From: a virus
IMG/VR virus record: IMGVR_UViG_3300047557_002442
Coordinates: 1 to 64,000 of that record
Length of the DNA stretch: 64,000 nucleotides
Strand: one strand, 5' to 3'
Each line of letters begins with the position of its first letter. Within the stretch, counting starts at the first letter, position 1. The notes beneath the pieces are model-generated. The model was given only the letters and a program-made list of their open reading frames with translations. It did not search any database and had not been told where the DNA came from. Below are positions 2,566 to 35,835 of the stretch, in pieces. Made by a program: the position numbers and the translations under genes.

Positions 2566-5500
2566 TTAATATCCTATTTTTACGTCAGGTGTTGTTACAA
2601 AGTTTGCAGGAACAACTGTGTTTGATTGTGCTACGATTGCTGTACCATTTCTTACTGTGAGATGAAATACATCTCCAGGTTGTACTCCAAATATTTCACT
2701 TTGTATTGTTGTAGTAAATACTCCTGCTGTAGTAGTAGTGTTCGAATTATATGATCTTGGAGCTGAGGTGAATGAATTAGCTGTTATTGTAGCTTTTTGG
2801 GATGCAGCACTATCAATCTTCTTTGTTCCCCTGAACACATCTACTGTATATGTAAGTACTGTTTTGTTTGGGACATTTACAGTATTTATATCTACGGTAT
2901 AAAGTCTAGTTGTTACAACTTTAGGAACAATACCAAGTATTGTTCCTGTGCCTACCCCCTGCGTACTAGTTTCCTGTGATAATGAAATTCGTCCAGCATA
3001 TGTTGGCATAGTTATAGCTGAAGGAGAAATCATCATTTCAGCCACTGCCGTATTAGGCGTCAATGCACCTGGTACCGCTGATCCAATATTTACAACAATA
3101 TTTTTTGCTGATGATAGACTTGAATTGACGGTAAATGTTTGACTCGATCCAGTACCATCTGAAGCTGTTGTATTACCGGTTACAGTAAATGTATCAATAA
3201 CACCAGTTAAACTAGCACCATTCAAATCATCGCTTGTTACACCAGTAATATTGTAGTTGAATTGAGCTCCACTAAATGATTTATATGTATTAATAGTTAT
3301 TGCAAAAGTGTTACCTGCACCCACGAACGTTGGTACATCAACTTTCCATGTTCCAAGACTTGCGTTTTGTGCAAAAATTACACGTTTTGAATCAGTCCAT
3401 CTTTGACCAGATGCTAGTGCATAACCTGCAGGAAGCATTATACGCATTCTATAGTTTTCTAAATTGTTGTAGTTGTCTCCAACAAATACAATTGTTTTTG
3501 TAGCTACTCCACCTGTAAACGTCAGTGTACCTTCCCTATCAGCATTGGAAACGTTCTTAGCATCCCCCATATTACTTCCTGTCTTACCAATCCCAGTCGA
3601 CTGAACTTCAGCAGATGGAGTGTATCCAGTAGATGTACCTGCCACAGCATCTTTACCATTCAACATAACATAATTAGCCGTTCCGGTGTATCCCGGTATC
3701 AATATTGTAAACGTCACAGTTCGCTGATCAGCAGCTAGTTTCAAGTTGATTAACGTCTTATCCATTTCGATAGTTGGATCTGGTGCTGCTGATGGATTAA
3801 TTGTTACTGTTCTGCTTCTGTTGAACCCATCACCAACTGCAAAGGTAAACTGTTCTGCTGCAAAATCATCAACATTCTTAGCTAATGTTACTGAGACATT
3901 AGCGACAGCCAATGTCGTATTCCCTACAAGTGAAACTCTTCCGCTTCTTGGAGTAGTAAAATCAGATGCTGTAATATTAGTACCACTAATATCGTATTGA
4001 TATGATGCGTTACCAATTCCAGTTGTTTGAAGTGTAAATATTACAGTATTGCCTTCATCTACAAAATCTCGATCAGAGCTAAGTGAGAAGGAATTAACAA
4101 TTGTGTTACCAGTTATAACTACGGCACGTGACAGCGTTCTCGTGTTTGATGCATCTCTAACCGTTAACAACATTGTTTCGTTGTTTTCTGGTGACCCATC
4201 ATTATTAGCCGTAACAACCAAATTGGCGCTGTTAGACACGATAGTTAGGTTTCCTGTCAATGGTGTTGGATCAATATCTCCTGATGAAATCCCAGTAATA
4301 GTGTATGAGAATACATTACCATTCCATCCATTTGCTTCAAGTGTGAACTTAACTGATTGTCCCTCAGCAATTGAGTCAGTATTAGCAGTTAATAATAATT
4401 TTGTTGGCGTTTGATCGATGATAGCAACAGACTGTGTTAAGTTAGCTACATCTTGAGATGTTAAATCAACTTCAAATCTCATTGTTGGACTACCAGCCGT
4501 AACCATCGTACTATTTGTTGTGACGACAAGGTTGGCTGAATTATTGGCATATGTTAACGTTCCACGTAACGGTACATCAATGTCCCCGGATGAGTTTACA
4601 CCAGTAATAACATATGGGAACGTAGTGTTTGCAACATTTGACAATGATGAAAGAGTAAACCTAACAGACTGACCTTCATTAATAATATTTGTGTTTGCCA
4701 CAAGACTGAAGATTGGTTTTGGTAAATCAGTCACGAATATTGTTTTAGTGAGATTCAATGGGTGATGGACTGTAAGACTTAACGTTTCAACCCCATTGGA
4801 TCCCTCTGAAACGAAATCAACATTTGGTGTTACACTCAATGTAGCAAAACCAGTACTGTTAATTGTCAGATTACCTGTTAATGGCACATTCAAATCACTC
4901 GCTGTTATACCAACCCCGCTCAATGTATATGGTATAACTACGCCGGTATTCACATTATCTGTATCAAGTGTGAATAAGGCAGTTTGACCTTCAAGCACAT
5001 TTTCTGTATTACATGTCAGAACCCCTCTCGGATTCAATCCATCATCCAGAATACGTAAGGAAATTGAGTTTACTCCCCCAACATTAACAGAGAATGATAG
5101 TGTTTCTGTACCTTCTGGCGAAGCATCTGAATTAGCTGCAATTGATAGTGTTGCCACAGTTCTTTCTGTATTACCGATAAGCGTCATCGTTCCAGTACTT
5201 GAAACGTTTATGTCACCAGATGATATACCAGTGATAGTATATCCTACTACGGTACCATTTGCAACATTAATTGCTTGCAAAGTGATGTTGGCTGACTGTC
5301 CTTCTACAATTTCAATTTTGTCTGATGAGAGAACATACGCTGGGGATGTGTTTGTTAGAATATTAGCCCATACGTCGCTATTAGCTGATGTTGCATAATC
5401 ATACGTATCAGTTATCTTCAATTCGCCCTTGAACGTTACCTTAAAGGATGATGGTCGAGTAATCATTTCACCAATAAACTTAACATCTCCACCAACACCA

Positions 5501-26338: not shown

Positions 26339-28297
26339 ATGGATGAAAAGAAATCAATTTTTGACTCGATAAAAAGTATGTTTACATCAAGAAAAACTCT
26401 TGGTATGTCTGACGAGTCCTCTCAAGAACCTGCTCAACAAGAAGCTGCAGCAGAATCTAAGGATAACATCCAAAACATTGACTTTGATGTAGTGAAACAA
26501 TCCTTTACAAATATCGAAACTTCTCTTGATAAACTCTCGGAAATTTTTGAAGGCATCAATAAAACTTTAGAATCTTTAGTGGTTCAACAAGACAGGGAAA
26601 AGTATACCGAAGAAGAGGCTGCTTTGGAGAATAGAGAAATGGCTCCTCCAGGTGAGGAACCTGTAGCTGAAAGAGAAGAAGCGCCATCCTTTTTTGATAG
26701 TCTCAAGAGTCTGTTTATGAACCCAGCAGTTATTGCCGCACTTGCTGGGATTGTTTATACTGTTTTACCTAAAGAAGTACAGGAAAAAATTAAAGGAGTG
26801 TTGGGTGGCTTTGCTAATGGTCTTAATGAGTCGACTGATGGGTTTTCGGAATTGTCAGCAACAACGAAATTGGTTGGTGTTGGTCTTCTAACTTATTTTG
26901 GAGCCAAGTTTTTAAGTAGTATAGCTAATGCTGCATCTACAGTTCTGAGTATGATTCGTGGCTTTGGCCGCATGGGTAAATTTGGTAAATTAGCTGTTGT
27001 TGGTACTGCTGCCGTTGTTGGTGGTAAGATGTTGTTTGGTGATGATTCTTCAAAAGAGGAACAACCAGAGATAGAAAAGGAAGAAGAGACTAAGGACCTT
27101 GAAAGTAAGACGGTTGAAAAGACAGAGACCGAAAAGGAAACCACAGAATCCACCTCAACAGCACAAGCTTCCACCACAGCCACTACTTCTTCTACTACCT
27201 CATCCACAACAAGCGAGACTGCTACTGAAACTACTAAAGTAGAAGAAAAACCAGCACCTACGTCAACCGATATGAAACAGGCTGAACCAGCTAAGCCGCC
27301 ATCCCGTCAAGAACGTATTCAAATGGCTACAGCAGCTCCATCAGCTACACCGGCAGCAAGTTCTGGAACATCTACACCATCAGCTCCACCAGCTACCGAA
27401 TCAAAACCTACCGTAGCCGCAGCTCCTGCATCTGCACAGTTACCTGGTAAATCTGCTACAGGTGATAAAAAAGCTGCCCCTGTAAAGGCAGAGTCGCCGA
27501 AGAGAGGTCCCGGTTTCCAAGCCGGTGTTTCTGCAATGAAGCAGGCTATCCAAAAAGAAGGTATAACGAATCCAGAAGCTGTTGCCCAGATTCTTGCTCA
27601 GACAGCTCATGAGTCAGGTGGGTTTAAGTACACAGAAGAACTAGCTAGTGGTCAGAACTATGAAGGTAGAAAAGATCTTGGCAACAATGAGCCAGGGGAT
27701 GGTGTGAGATATAAGGGTAGGGGGTTTCTGCAGGTTACAGGTAAATCTAACTATGCTGCGATATCCAAGGATCTTGGTGTTGATTTTGTCAAGAATCCTT
27801 CTATGCTTGCCGATCCAAAATATGCTGCTGAATCTGCACTTTGGTTCTTCAAGAGACCTTACAATGCCCGAAGAATTAAGGATTGGGGTGACACAAAGGC
27901 CGTCACAAAGGTAGTTAATGGAGGTTACAATGGTCTGGCTGAACGTGAGCAATACTTTGCTCAGTTTTCGTCCGATCCATCCATTACACAAGCCTCAGCA
28001 GCCGAGCTAACACCTCAGCAACAAGCACAAAAAGTACTTGCACCAAGTCAAACTCCAATGCCCGAATCTACCCCAAGAGCCAGTGCAGGGGCTCAAGTTG
28101 CTTCATTGAGCACAAAAAATGAGGCGCTAGCAACGCCAGCGCCTCAGGCTCCACAGGTATTCAATAACAGCAAAGTTAATAATACCTCAGGTAAGATGCA
28201 ACCTACAGAAAGTAATGATGCACCACAGATTCCAATCCCAATCGCCTCAAGAGGCTCATTGACAGCGGATGTACATCACGCTACTCACTATGCTTAA
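26339..28297 (+). CDS. Hub/tape-measure-like protein with GH19-type muralytic domain
   Basis: 652 aa, one base after the preceding gene. N-terminus: short coiled region and hydrophobic helices (about 125-150 and 175-235), like its neighbour. Residues 240-390 are Thr/Glu/Ala/Pro-rich low complexity. Residues about 390-545 form a GH19 chitinase/lysozyme-like domain: AQTAHESGGFKYTEE with the catalytic Glu near 424, YKGRGFLQVTGKSNYAAI, SALWFFKR and VVNGGYNGLAERE. The C-tail (VFNNSKVNNTSGK) resembles the neighbour's tail. It likely digests peptidoglycan during ejection, replacing the lysozyme missing from gp5. Confidence 0.7.
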   Translation: MDEKKSIFDSIKSMFTSRKTLGMSDESSQEPAQQEAAAESKDNIQNIDFDVVKQSFTNIETSLDKLSEIFEGINKTLESLVVQQDREKYTEEEAALENREMAPPGEEPVAEREEAPSFFDSLKSLFMNPAVIAALAGIVYTVLPKEVQEKIKGVLGGFANGLNESTDGFSELSATTKLVGVGLLTYFGAKFLSSIANAASTVLSMIRGFGRMGKFGKLAVVGTAAVVGGKMLFGDDSSKEEQPEIEKEEETKDLESKTVEKTETEKETTESTSTAQASTTATTSSTTSSTTSETATETTKVEEKPAPTSTDMKQAEPAKPPSRQERIQMATAAPSATPAASSGTSTPSAPPATESKPTVAAAPASAQLPGKSATGDKKAAPVKAESPKRGPGFQAGVSAMKQAIQKEGITNPEAVAQILAQTAHESGGFKYTEELASGQNYEGRKDLGNNEPGDGVRYKGRGFLQVTGKSNYAAISKDLGVDFVKNPSMLADPKYAAESALWFFKRPYNARRIKDWGDTKAVTKVVNGGYNGLAEREQYFAQFSSDPSITQASAAELTPQQQAQKVLAPSQTPMPESTPRASAGAQVASLSTKNEALATPAPQAPQVFNNSKVNNTSGKMQPTESNDAPQIPIPIASRGSLTADVHHATHYA

Positions 28298-29220
28298 TCT
28301 TCCTCAGCTAATCGCTTAAAGAAGTCAGCATCATCATCGTCCTCAGTCACAGCTGGAATTGATGGTGCTGGTTTAGTCTTAGCTACTGGTGGAGGTGTAA
28401 ACTCTTCAGCATCATCCCATGGTGGGGAACTTTCAGCTGTTGTAACAGGTCTTGACACTACTGCTCCATCTAAACCTAACACACGGTACAACTTAGCTTT
28501 CAATTCATCATATGACTTAAAGTTCTTTGGATCAACAAACTCTTGTAAAGAGTGTTCTTGCTTCCAGATTGATTCCAACTGACCATCATCATCAGACAGT
28601 GGTGCTGGTGCATCAAATGAGGATTGATCATAGTTACGATATCCTTCTACATTACGAATCTTCAACTTGAAGTTAGCACCTTCCCATAGATCAAATGGGT
28701 TGATTGGTGCTTCATCAGGAAACTGAGGATTCATTGCATCGTTAAGTTTATCAAAGATCTTCTTACCATACTTGAACAAGAATACTTTACCCTCATTCTG
28801 TGGGTTAGCAGTATCTTTAACAACATAGATGTTAGAGATGAATGTTAAACGACGTTTCTGATCCCGTACTTGTTTGCGCTGAGGGGAATTGTCATCTGTT
28901 GTGGAATTCCATAACTGAGTATTGTACTCAGAAACTGGATCTTGCTGACCTAGCGTTGTCAAAGACTTCTCGATATACCATTGTCCATTTAGACCCTTGA
29001 AGCCATGGTCCCAAACACGAACAAACGGAACATCTTCGTTGGTTGGTGCTGGTAAGAAACGGATAACAGCAAAGCCATTGCCTGCTTTATCTACTTCTGG
29101 TTTCCAAAATTTATCGTCGTCTCGGGAATCTGGTGCTACGGAACTTAGCTTTGATACTTCGCTAGTTAGTTTGGTTAGTTGTTCACTACGGTTACGTTTT
29201 AACTGATTAAAATCAGACAT
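28294..29220 (-). CDS. gp32: Single-stranded DNA-binding protein gp32
   Basis: 308 aa, like T4 gp32 (301). N-terminal basic segment QLKRNRSEQLTKLTSEVSK, core FWKPEVDKAGNGFAVIRFLP, FVRVWDHGFKGLNGQWYIEK and FLFKYGKKIFDKLNDAMNP, and an acidic C-terminal tail (EDDDDADFFKRLAEED) used for protein contacts. No Cys occurs in the protein, so the T4 zinc site is missing. SD AAGGAG. It is convergent with the preceding gene, overlapping its stop. A sigma70-type promoter lies upstream at 29299-29327. Confidence 0.92.
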   Translation of the reverse strand: MSDFNQLKRNRSEQLTKLTSEVSKLSSVAPDSRDDDKFWKPEVDKAGNGFAVIRFLPAPTNEDVPFVRVWDHGFKGLNGQWYIEKSLTTLGQQDPVSEYNTQLWNSTTDDNSPQRKQVRDQKRRLTFISNIYVVKDTANPQNEGKVFLFKYGKKIFDKLNDAMNPQFPDEAPINPFDLWEGANFKLKIRNVEGYRNYDQSSFDAPAPLSDDDGQLESIWKQEHSLQEFVDPKNFKSYDELKAKLYRVLGLDGAVVSRPVTTAESSPPWDDAEEFTPPPVAKTKPAPSIPAVTEDDDDADFFKRLAEED

Positions 29221-32985: not shown

Positions 32986-33561
32986 TTAGATCTTACCAAT
33001 CAAATCTAAACTTGGTGTTAGTGTTTCAGCACCATCTGCCCATTTAGCTGGACATGCCTCATTGGGATGTTCTCTTGTATAGATTGCTGCCTTGATCTTA
33101 CGAACAAGCTCGGCTGCATTACGACCAACACCATCTGCTGTTTGTTCGCTAATAACAACCTTACCATCCGGATCGACAACAAATGTTGAACGGTGTGCTA
33201 ATCCAGTTTCACAATTCAACACATTGAATATTTGTGAAAGAATATGTGCTGGATCGCCAATCAGTGGATATTTGACTTTCTTAATTGTATCTGATGCGTC
33301 TGCCCATGCCTTATGGACAAAATGAGTATCAGTAGATACTCCATATACATTGACTCCTAATGTCTTCAATTCATCATAATGATCCTGTAGATCACCTAAC
33401 TCTGTCGGACAAACAAAAGTAAAATCAGCTGGATAGAAAAAGAATACATTCCAGCCAGTAGTTAAATCTTCGGATGATAGTTTATTAAACTTACCATCAC
33501 AGTATACATCAACATAATAATTAACAACATACTCATTTGCAGCTTGGCCTACATTTATCAT
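32986..33561 (-). CDS. ahpC: 2-Cys peroxiredoxin (AhpC type)
   Basis: 191 aa, normal for AhpC. The peroxidatic site is [20 protein letters not shown] with Cys near 51; the resolving Cys is in [10 protein letters not shown] near 168. [13 protein letters not shown] and [15 protein letters not shown] are family motifs. It reduces hydrogen peroxide and organic peroxides using a host reductant. Monocistronic-looking, followed by a terminator. An auxiliary metabolic gene probably acquired from a bacterium. Confidence 0.92.
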
Positions 33562-33755: not shown

Positions 33756-33783
33756 AAAAAAAGGGCTATACAGCCCTTTTTTT
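33756..33783 (-). terminator. Strong terminator after pqqA
   Basis: Perfect 12-bp stem AAAAAAAGGGCT/AGCCCTTTTTTT with an ATAC loop; bidirectional in form. It isolates pqqA from the downstream genes. Confidence 0.9.
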
Positions 33784-33805: not shown

Positions 33806-33877
33806 TTATTTATTCATTACGTACATTGTTACTTCGAAGCCGAAGCGCATTTCTTGTGCAGTTGGTTTTGTCCACAT
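33806..33877 (-). CDS. pqqA: PqqA, PQQ cofactor precursor peptide
   Basis: 23 aa: MWTKPTAQEMRFGFEVTMYV, then MNK. It has the PqqA pattern W-x-K-P, R-x-G-F-E-V-T-M-Y. Glu15 and Tyr19, in the required E-x-x-x-Y spacing, are the residues cross-linked to make pyrroloquinoline quinone. Strong SD AAGGAG and a dedicated terminator show it is a real short gene. No other pqq gene is visible in the window, so the host PqqB-E would have to process it. PQQ serves methanol and other alcohol dehydrogenases, pointing to a methylotrophic or alcohol-oxidising host. Confidence 0.88.
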   Translation of the reverse strand: MWTKPTAQEMRFGFEVTMYVMNK

Positions 33878-33911
33878 AATATTTCTCCTTAATTAAGTTT
33901 AAACACATTTG

Positions 33912-33923
33912 AGGCAATTGCCT
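33912..33923. promoter_or_regulatory. 12-bp palindrome upstream of pqqA
   Basis: AGGCAATTGCCT, a perfect palindrome 35 bases before the pqqA ATG in an AT-rich leader; a possible operator. No good -35/-10 pair is evident around it. Confidence 0.3.
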
Positions 33924-33955
33924 ACCTGTCTATTTAACCATATTTGAGGAAAAAA

Positions 33956-33987
33956 CACCATGCTCGAGTACGCAATTGAGCATGGTG
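33956..33987 (-). terminator. Terminator after the DUF932 gene
   Basis: 10-bp stem CACCATGCTC/GAGCATGGTG, 12-base loop, followed on the minus strand by TTTTTT; 14 bases after the stop. Confidence 0.85.
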
Positions 33988-34000
33988 AAATTCATTAACT

Positions 34001-34969
34001 TTATGCTGCCTCTGCAAACTCAATAGCAGTCTCTAACGCCTTGAGTTTTAAGTTCTTATTTGGACCAAACCATGCAGATGTAAGACGTGTATCTGCATCA
34101 CGACCAATAACATGATCTGTCATATAGGTCACAGTGTTGAATGCTTGCCACCAAGATCCTTCAGCATACTCTGCACCAGGTTGTTGCATCACTAATTCTA
34201 AGGCGCGTGATGCTGACTTAGATAGATCCTTACGCTGTGGACCTTTCTCTTTGTTGTATGCAATTACTGGGAATACACGATTGAAGTACTCTTTCAATGT
34301 TTCTTCTTTGTACTTACGAGAGCCCAAGAACTGTGCCATTTCTTTATACTTAGCTAGCTTGTCAGATGCAATACCTAACATAGTCTTAACATTATCACCA
34401 TCAAACTCACGACGGTGATTGACCTTCACTACACTACTAGCACTCTGATTCAAAGCTAATGTTAATGTATTATTACACACAACACGTATTGGTGTAAAAC
34501 GTACGTCAATAGACTGACCAAACTTGTGTGGGTTAGTGAATAGCAAGTAACTATCTACCTGATCGCCACCAAACACATCAAAAGACTCCTTAACTTTTGC
34601 TAATGCAAATACGATCTGACCACCCTTAAGCGAACCAGCTGTATGCATCTCCATATCACCAGCTAGTACAAAATCATTAAAGAATTCAAAGGCTTCCTGG
34701 TTCTGTACAGGGTTCCAATCAGCTGAGACAATATCTAAGATCTTGTTGTCTGTAGAACGAACAAGTGGCGATACATTAAGTGGTGTCTTCATACCACCAA
34801 TAATAGAATATGCTTCTACTTTTTGTACAGTCCAATCTAAGCCAGCAAGTTGCAGCATCTGTTCAGGACTAACATCTGCGGGTACTTCCGTACCAAGTCC
34901 GTGCCACGGTTTCTCACCAACATAAGCCATCTGTGCTACACCATTAATCATTTCAATTTCATGTGCCAT
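34001..34969 (-). CDS. DUF932 phage/plasmid-like protein
   Basis: 322 aa. GEKPWHGLGTEVPADVSPEQ, VSADWNPVQNQEAFEFFNDF, MEMHTAGSLKGGQIVFALAK and FTPIRVVCNNTLTLALNQ are signatures of the DUF932 (TIGR03299) family found in phages and plasmids. The molecular role is not established. It is monocistronic: a sigma70-like promoter lies upstream and a strong terminator downstream. SD AGGAGAAA. Confidence 0.85.
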   Translation of the reverse strand: MAHEIEMINGVAQMAYVGEKPWHGLGTEVPADVSPEQMLQLAGLDWTVQKVEAYSIIGGMKTPLNVSPLVRSTDNKILDIVSADWNPVQNQEAFEFFNDFVLAGDMEMHTAGSLKGGQIVFALAKVKESFDVFGGDQVDSYLLFTNPHKFGQSIDVRFTPIRVVCNNTLTLALNQSASSVVKVNHRREFDGDNVKTMLGIASDKLAKYKEMAQFLGSRKYKEETLKEYFNRVFPVIAYNKEKGPQRKDLSKSASRALELVMQQPGAEYAEGSWWQAFNTVTYMTDHVIGRDADTRLTSAWFGPNKNLKLKALETAIEFAEAA

Positions 34970-35009
34970 AATATATTTCTCCTAACGTGTTTATCAAAAT
35001 AACAATATC

Positions 35010-35038
35010 ATAATAACGTTTTTATGAAATTAAGTCAA
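35010..35038 (-). promoter_or_regulatory. sigma70-like promoter for the DUF932 gene
   Basis: Minus strand TTGACT (35038-35033), 17-base spacer, TATTAT (35015-35010), about 40 bases before the ATG at 34969. Confidence 0.7.
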
Positions 35039-35051
35039 CACTTTTTGAAAT

Positions 35052-35079
35052 AAAAAAAGCCGACTTTGTCGGCTTTTTT
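35052..35079 (-). terminator. Terminator after the outer-membrane protein gene
   Basis: Stem AAAAAAGCCGAC/GTCGGCTTTTTT with a TTT loop, 15 bases after the stop. Confidence 0.9.
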
Positions 35080-35093
35080 GTTAGGAGTATAGA

Positions 35094-35651
35094 TTAGAAT
35101 CTAACATTGTATCCAAAGTTATATGACCAAAAATCATCGTCTCCTGTTGCTCGGTCAACACCGGCTACAAGCGATGAATTTTTTGTGATCGCATAGTCTG
35201 CAGCTGCACGCCATGTACGTGTTGAGTCGTTGTCATCTTTATGAAATGCGTTACGGAAACGTAGTCCCCCTCTAACATTCAGCTTATCAGTAACAGCATA
35301 CTGCAACCCAGGCTCAGTACTCCAGTATTGGAAATTGTCAGTACCGTTCATTTTGGTACCATATGCACTACGATTATAAACGGTGAATCCTGCGCCAATA
35401 GGTAATCTACCAATCAATGCACCCTCTAAACGAGTATTATTACTGTCATTATCACTAGTCTTTAAACGTGTATTAATTTCAGCATCCAAATACTTGTTAA
35501 TGCTTTGACCAAGCGTTACTTGGTATACATTTGCGTCTTGATAACCTTCCAACCCGTTACGAAGTTGGAACTGGATACCACCGTAATTGCCTTCTGCAGC
35601 TGCAAAAGAACTTGCTAACATCATCGTCAGCATTAATACATACTTTTTCAT
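35094..35651 (-). CDS. Outer-membrane beta-barrel protein
   Basis: 185 aa from ATG 35651, chosen because GGGAG precedes it and a classic signal peptide follows (MKKYVLMLTMMLASSFAAAE). The mature part alternates polar and hydrophobic residues in strands (VYQVTLGQSINKYLDAEINT, LNVRGGLRFRNAF, SSLVAGVDRATG) and ends in YNFGYNVRF, a C-terminal Phe typical of BamA substrates. Probably an 8-strand barrel. Phage-encoded barrels can alter receptors or block superinfection; that role is inference. Confidence 0.75.
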   Translation of the reverse strand: MKKYVLMLTMMLASSFAAAEGNYGGIQFQLRNGLEGYQDANVYQVTLGQSINKYLDAEINTRLKTSDNDSNNTRLEGALIGRLPIGAGFTVYNRSAYGTKMNGTDNFQYWSTEPGLQYAVTDKLNVRGGLRFRNAFHKDDNDSTRTWRAAADYAITKNSSLVAGVDRATGDDDFWSYNFGYNVRF

Positions 35652-35676
35652 TACATCTCCCTTTTTGTTATACATG

Positions 35677-35835
35677 CTAATCATTCCAATGCCTTAAAAC
35701 GCCTGCAACAATCACCATGTTTGTTATAAGGTAACAGAGAACAATAATTGTTCTTATCAGTGCTACTCTATCAGCCTCTTTATCACAATTGCCAGACTTT
35801 TCGCCCAGTGCTTTAGCCCACAATCTCCACATCAT
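35677..35835 (-). CDS. 52-aa conserved phage membrane protein
   Basis: MMWRLWAKALGEKSGNCDKE, then ADRVALIRTIIVLCYLITNM and VIVAGVLRHWND. One long hydrophobic helix in the C-terminal half, cytoplasmic WRLWAKALGE head. The pattern is, as I recall, recurrent in marine T4-like phages. It lies between the GroES-like gene and the barrel gene. The function is unknown. Confidence 0.65.
   Translation of the reverse strand: MMWRLWAKALGEKSGNCDKEADRVALIRTIIVLCYLITNMVIVAGVLRHWND

Follow-up and report, generated by a model that had tools for sequence, protein, structure and literature searches.

A predicted pqqA gene of 23 codons in a T4-like phage and its recurrence in phages of methylotrophic Methylophilaceae

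Cyanophages carry psbA and psbD, the first of which replaces the fast-turning D1 protein. Methylophilaceae (OM43, Methylopumilus, Methylotenera) are major methanol consumers of marine and lake waters and rely on PQQ enzymes; the XoxF/Mxa methanol dehydrogenases use PQQ as their cofactor. In the synthesis of this cofactor PqqB-E are reusable catalysts. It is established (Barr et al. 2016, as quoted by PMC7678222; PMC10906245) that PqqE and PqqD cross-link a glutamate and a tyrosine of PqqA and the remainder of the peptide is discarded, so that each PQQ costs one PqqA.

The closest described viral case is a methylophage population from Lake Baikal, VP_266, which is reported in one sentence to encode PqqA together with a methanol dehydrogenase (Coutinho et al. 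2020, PMC7678222). The pqqA described here is not the first phage case, VP_266 having been reported earlier. VP_266 resembles our virus in being T4-like, in its predicted Methylophilaceae host and in its PqqA precursor peptide, which was read there as an auxiliary metabolic gene (AMG) for methanol oxidation; it differs in possessing a methanol dehydrogenase, whereas no PQQ-dependent methanol dehydrogenase was found in our 101-kb record, itself a fragment. Moreover, VP_266 is one population, whereas pqqA is found here to be widespread in unrelated lineages, named isolates included, and with evidence of selection. The likeness to cyanophage psbA/psbD is one of principle: phage pqqA, too, would supply only the fast-turnover component while host energy metabolism continues, and it recurs in unrelated phages of one host group. 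However, PqqA is a 23-residue consumed substrate whose role in the phage is read from sequence, whereas the psbA/psbD products are protein subunits. The available text of the papers on Melnitz (PMC9004378), MEP401/402 (PMC10580990) and Venkman (PMC8163748) does not mention PqqA in these phages, and no statement of pqqA as general in methylophages was found in the open-licence PMC papers searched. Thus, the kind of gene is already known, but its breadth appears to be undescribed so far.

The window, i.e., the whole stretch of 64,000 nucleotides that was analysed, is part of a 101,219-base IMG/VR record (IMGVR_UViG_3300047557_002442). The following features bear on the pqqA locus and on the identity of the virus:

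33806..33877, minus strand: pqqA-like ORF, 23 aa, MWTKPTAQEMRFGFEVTMYVMNK (translation, PF08042 and TIGR02107 profile matches)
33885..33890, minus strand: Shine-Dalgarno motif AAGGAG, 7 nt ahead of the pqqA ATG (sequence)
33756..33783, minus strand: putative intrinsic terminator 3' of pqqA, 12-bp perfect stem AAAAAAAGGGCT/AGCCCTTTTTTT with a 4-nt loop (folded piece -15.9 kcal/mol)
33950..33987, minus strand: hairpin with a 10-bp stem CACCATGCTC/GAGCATGGTG and a 12-nt loop, then TTTTTT (sequence and fold; folded piece -17.5 kcal/mol)
34001..34969, minus strand: gene of a DUF932 protein, 322 aa, preceding pqqA (PF06067, E=2e-41; context, outside PQQ function)
32986..33561, minus strand: peroxiredoxin (AhpC/TSA, 191 aa), downstream of pqqA (PF00578, E=2e-32)
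28294..29220, minus strand: gp32 single-stranded DNA-binding protein (PF08804, E=1e-46)

The ORF runs from an ATG to a TAA stop over 72 bases (23 codons plus the stop), and the plus-strand reading of the same interval is unrelated to PqqA. In profile searches the peptide matched PF08042 (39.8 bits, E=4e-10; curated cut-off 21.1) and TIGR02107 (38.1 bits, E=9e-10; curated cut-off 20) and no families beyond these two. Its translation contains W2-x-K4-P5, R11-x-G-F-E-V-T-M-Y19 and the E15/Y19 pair (E-x-x-x-Y) that is cross-linked by PqqE. Members of the PqqA family have about 22-29 residues and their own start and ribosome site; here, 23 residues follow an ATG that is preceded by AAGGAG. The first-pass annotation of this stretch had claimed a 23-codon PqqA-like gene at these very coordinates, with the same motifs and a strong AAGGAG ribosome site, and had named the two profiles as a check. 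Each of these points was reproduced, the profile scores lie above the curated cut-offs, and the strand, not given earlier, is the minus strand. The ORF is, by prediction, a phage-borne PqqA. It shares with host Methylophilaceae PqqA its length, the subtype MWT[K/T]PAATEMRFGFEVTMYVMNK, E15/Y19, the kind of ribosome site and, often, a terminator, but two or three of its positions (T6, Q8, K/T4) depart from the most common host peptides. The phage peptide is thus of the Methylophilaceae subtype.

The perfect 12-bp terminator that had been claimed for the gene was found with its 4-nt loop at 33756-33783. On the other side, upstream of pqqA and past the end of the DUF932 gene, lies the second hairpin, with its stem-loop at 33956-33987 and its T-run down to 33950; it is a putative terminator of the preceding DUF932 gene, separating this gene from pqqA. 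The small transcription unit proposed by the first-pass annotation stands, with an additional upstream terminator that had gone unmentioned there. A promoter/terminator scan reported neither terminator under its stem/tail and loop-length rules, and both derive from direct inspection and folding. Because terminators flank pqqA on both sides, its own promoter, if any, would be confined to about 70 bases. No promoter was assignable to the gene by the scan and inspection, and the T4-type late promoter TATAAATA is absent near it. A perfect 12-bp palindrome (AGGCAATTGCCT, window 33912-33923), possibly an operator, is located between the upstream terminator and pqqA.

The DUF932 gene has 80 viral relatives in this comparison, none with pqqA in the stretches covered, indicating that pqqA does not travel with this gene, and the OMP-like gene neighbouring pqqA had no viral relatives. 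An AhpC-type peroxiredoxin directly adjoins pqqA in the phage contig L038 too (3885-4481, minus strand) and is 75% identical to the window protein. PqqC releases hydrogen peroxide; a functional link between peroxiredoxin and pqqA is conceivable, the pairing being limited to two loci. The lack of pqqB-E that had been noted for the window extends to the whole 101-kb record, in which tblastn with Acinetobacter queries detected none of PqqB, C, D and E. As no large terminase was found in these 101 kb, the record is a fragment and such absences are provisional. PqqB-E were also absent from the viral pqqA loci, whereas in the control PqqB was present in 35 of 119 host pqqA loci.

The record encodes T4-type gp8, gp6, gp53, gp32, RNase H and ribonucleotide reductase; in the part beyond the window, a UvsX-like recombinase and a helicase of DnaB-like type are encoded. 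By tblastn, gp32 shares about 55% identity with its counterparts in cyanophages and in Stenotrophomonas phage DLP6. Judged by this gene content the virus is a T4-like phage, and its pqqA is, by prediction, a metabolic gene of host type in a genuine phage genome. The host is most likely a member of the Methylophilaceae, as suggested by the pqqA itself.

All 120 Methylophilaceae genomes tested carry pqqA, in 1-12 copies, and pqqE scored above the cut-off in 117 of them. Multiple copies (3-12) in this family have already been published (PMC4109929). The copies are scattered singly over the genome, with 12 in Methylotenera mobilis 13 (G004) as an example; the window pqqA resides in a phage that lacks pqqB-E, and many of these dispersed host copies likewise come without pqqB-E. 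The 119 genome stretches with the motif M-R-F-G-F-E-V-T-M-Y belonged mostly to Methylophilaceae and Methylophaga. A pattern of the Pseudomonas/Acinetobacter type had no viral matches, although the same pattern does match Acinetobacter pqqA. There were two viral matches to the Methylophaga-type pattern and two to the alphaproteobacterial type, one of them real. Subject to the sampling of the collections, viral pqqA is concentrated in the predicted viruses of Methylophilaceae-type methylotrophs and is not found in those attributed to bacteria with optional PQQ. The sole alphaproteobacterial type found in viral contigs, in L412 (IMGVR_UViG_3300049988_000349), is a Methylobacterium-type PqqA, MKWSAPIVQEVCVGMEVTSYESAEIDTFN. 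Two further viral contigs, L033 and L087, have PqqA variants (MKWETP...) whose likeness to the Methylomonas (methanotroph) type hints at pqqA in phages of methanotrophs as well.

Among 50,697 phage records, tblastn with the peptide returned 12 matches, nine of which are Methylophilales/Methylophilaceae phages: Venkman, MEP301, MEP401, MEP402, P19250A and four Melnitz isolates. The gene is present in every such isolate of the collection (9/9). Other Methylophilaceae phages named in the taxonomy were without a match (MEP431-434, Venkman EXVC038S, phiMB624-A, HIM624-A, MG-MtP1 and RSA-MFP1); EXVC038S, at least, is apparently outside the collection. By annotated gene order the nine isolates fall into five unrelated lineages: Venkman is a P22-like podovirus, MEP301 forms a group of its own, P19250A is a siphovirus that has tape-measure and host-specificity genes, MEP401/402 belong to the Zobellviridae, and the Melnitz isolates are T4-like Kyanoviridae. 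Pelagibacter phage HTVC008M, a Melnitz relative with a non-methylotrophic host, is present in the collection but had no pqqA match by tblastn. The other three matches comprise an uncultured Manatee Spring podovirus of unknown host and two contigs labelled 'Acinetobacter phage MD-2021a'. The one of this pair that was examined, CAKLQF020000010.1 (L009), was rejected as a phage pqqA: it carries bacterial pqqABCDE and polyphosphate kinase and is chromosomal DNA. The second record is CAKLQH020000055.1. Isolate records never name pqqA, the ORF being either unannotated or hidden under an opposite-strand 'hypothetical protein' (Melnitz, Manatee Spring); the prediction that gene callers would easily miss the gene proved right for all nine isolates.

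Uncultured viruses were searched in IMG/VR with degenerate DNA patterns. A pattern for G-F-E-V-T-M-Y found at least 120 stretches, and all 120 matches listed are complete PqqA ORFs of 23 to 25 residues. A second pattern, in which E-V-T-M-Y was left free, also gave at least 120 matches, and both patterns combined yield at least 183 distinct contigs with pqqA. Flanking genes of the first-pattern loci form 26 clusters among the matches listed, and the neighbourhoods vary from recombination genes and major capsid genes to sites beside gp32 and others. One T4-like contig of 72 kb, L051 (IMGVR_UViG_3300025120_009955), has a methanol dehydrogenase (contig 34049-35731) in addition to pqqA, like the Baikal VP_266. 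A contig of jumbo-phage size, L343 (IMGVR_UViG_3300023174_000036, 356 kb), in which the terminase match is interrupted by stops, encodes the PqqA MWTKPTAQEMRFGFEITMYVMNR, which has a TAQEM stretch in common with the window peptide.

Viral pqqA is kept under strong purifying selection. Loss of the E-x-x-x-Y pair in related phages, for which the first-pass annotation had advised looking, was not observed: E15 and Y19 are kept, the start is intact and the stop is at the expected place in all 120 second-pattern matches listed, in which these residues had not been selected on. Across the 105 distinct sequences of this set, pN/pS was 0.066 over codons 14-23, which the pattern leaves unfixed, and 0.019 over E-V-T-M-Y, with pS of 0.64-0.73, i.e., third positions are free. 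The first-pattern set gave a pN/pS of 0.31 over the codons outside the pattern because positions 4 and 6-8 vary. A Shine-Dalgarno motif is at the right place in 128 of 128 viral copies examined compared with 151 of 1200 random ATGs (12.6%), so the ribosome site of viral pqqA is not due to chance. Terminator-like hairpins within 120 nt past the gene were found at 46 of 127 viral copies vs. 29 of 961 other long ORF ends. Judged by these signals, the viral copies look like working genes.

We read the window ORF as a functional phage pqqA that would supply substrate to the PQQ pathway of the host, and assign this reading a probability of about 80%. The phage peptide would be translated in the infected methylotroph, most likely one of the Methylophilaceae, and host PqqD/PqqE would cross-link its E15 and Y19. 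A host peptidase, PqqB and PqqC would then finish PQQ, which would serve the XoxF/Mxa methanol dehydrogenases feeding the cell. After takeover of host expression by the phage, the consumed PqqA would be the part that runs out; the phage copy would restore or raise its supply, PQQ would be higher or sustained, and continued methanol oxidation would feed the infection to the benefit of the phage. Since PqqA is consumed one for one and PqqB-E are reusable, the phage would need only this 72-base gene, and the lack of pqqB-E and the retention of a single gene in unrelated phages could be explained by only the consumed part having to be replaced. The first-pass annotation had proposed that a minimal AMG boosts the cofactor. 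The AMG idea stands, but a boost is only one version of the mechanism: replacement of the consumed peptide after host takeover would fit equally well, and would explain the absent pqqB-E.

The proposed role is supported by the recurrence of the gene in unrelated methylophage lineages and by a pathway in the host family that could receive the peptide, with pqqA and pqqE as its indicators. Cell-free conversion of the PqqA peptide to PQQ has been described (cited in PMC9851590). On the other hand, disruption of pqqA in M. extorquens AM1 did not abolish PQQ (cited in PMC6520949), which implies that PqqA supply need not be limiting; also, with several pqqA copies already in the host, it is not obvious what an additional copy would add. 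The lack of a methanol dehydrogenase in the 101 kb of this fragmentary record likewise speaks against the reading.

The same gene could conceivably act against the pathway. As a decoy, the phage copy would bind PqqD/PqqE unprocessed or otherwise regulate the host, slowing PQQ synthesis; short peptides can act as competitors for the PqqD/PqqE complex, phages are known to redirect the metabolism of their hosts, and viral pqqA occurs alone, without pathway enzymes. However, an unprocessed peptide should lose E15/Y19, and the constancy of both residues together with the low pN/pS over E-V-T-M-Y, as well as the identity of many phage peptides to host PqqA, make such a role very unlikely.

The constraint at the protein level also bears on whether the stretch is used as a gene at all. 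Host pqqA is short, conserved and present in multiple copies, and DNA similarity between unrelated phages spans the ORF and about 20 nt upstream, as might be expected if a stretch of host pqqA served recombination or integration, the part that tRNA fragments play in temperate phages. Yet what this similarity spans is the gene plus its ribosome site, and the free third positions are unlike those of a site that depends on DNA identity. Nucleotide identity between the window copy and its nearest host counterpart is only 87%, and no more than 38 viral copies are at 95% or above. The window virus is, moreover, T4-like, a group that is not known to integrate. An attachment site is, in sum, extremely unlikely.

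That viral pqqA represents mis-binned bacterial DNA, or a recent neutral pick-up of host DNA, is hardly credible. Contamination does exist in the collections, as exemplified by the chromosomal pqqABCDE in the examined 'Acinetobacter phage' match, but complete isolate genomes carry pqqA, the genes flanking it are those of phages, only six viral loci among the first-pattern matches listed having one or two ORFs like the neighbours of host pqqA, a terminase was found in 11 of 21 larger records, and the genes are under strong purifying selection. For the window, the position of pqqA inside a T4-like gene order refutes this explanation, which is largely refuted for the whole set. Scarcely credible, too, is a different use by the virus of PQQ derived from the phage peptide, e.g., filling a surface PQQ receptor and excluding other phages: PQQ does block infection of E. 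coli by a phage dependent on the PQQ importer PqqU (PMC12124388), but methylophages are not known to use such a receptor, and obligate methanol metabolism offers the simpler link.

With supply of a consumed substrate as the preferred reading, the window pqqA is ordinary as a gene and unusual as an AMG for its size and recurrence. We think it rather probable that pqqA is near-universal in Methylophilaceae phages, that at least five unrelated lineages of tailed phages acquired or exchanged it, that it ranks among the smallest AMGs, that it is kept because PqqA is the sole consumed part of the pathway, and that it was overlooked because pipelines skip ORFs of 24 codons. A functional-looking 72-bp gene has been left unannotated or mis-annotated in every such isolate record, and its 24 codons provide a sequence marker by which phages of methylotrophs can be recognised in metagenomes. 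Cultured, named phage-host pairs with the gene (Venkman, Melnitz, MEP301, MEP401/402 and P19250A) make the claim directly testable. If Methylophilaceae phages routinely provide the precursor of PQQ, infected cells would oxidise methanol under viral control, much as photosynthesis is virally controlled in infected cyanobacteria.
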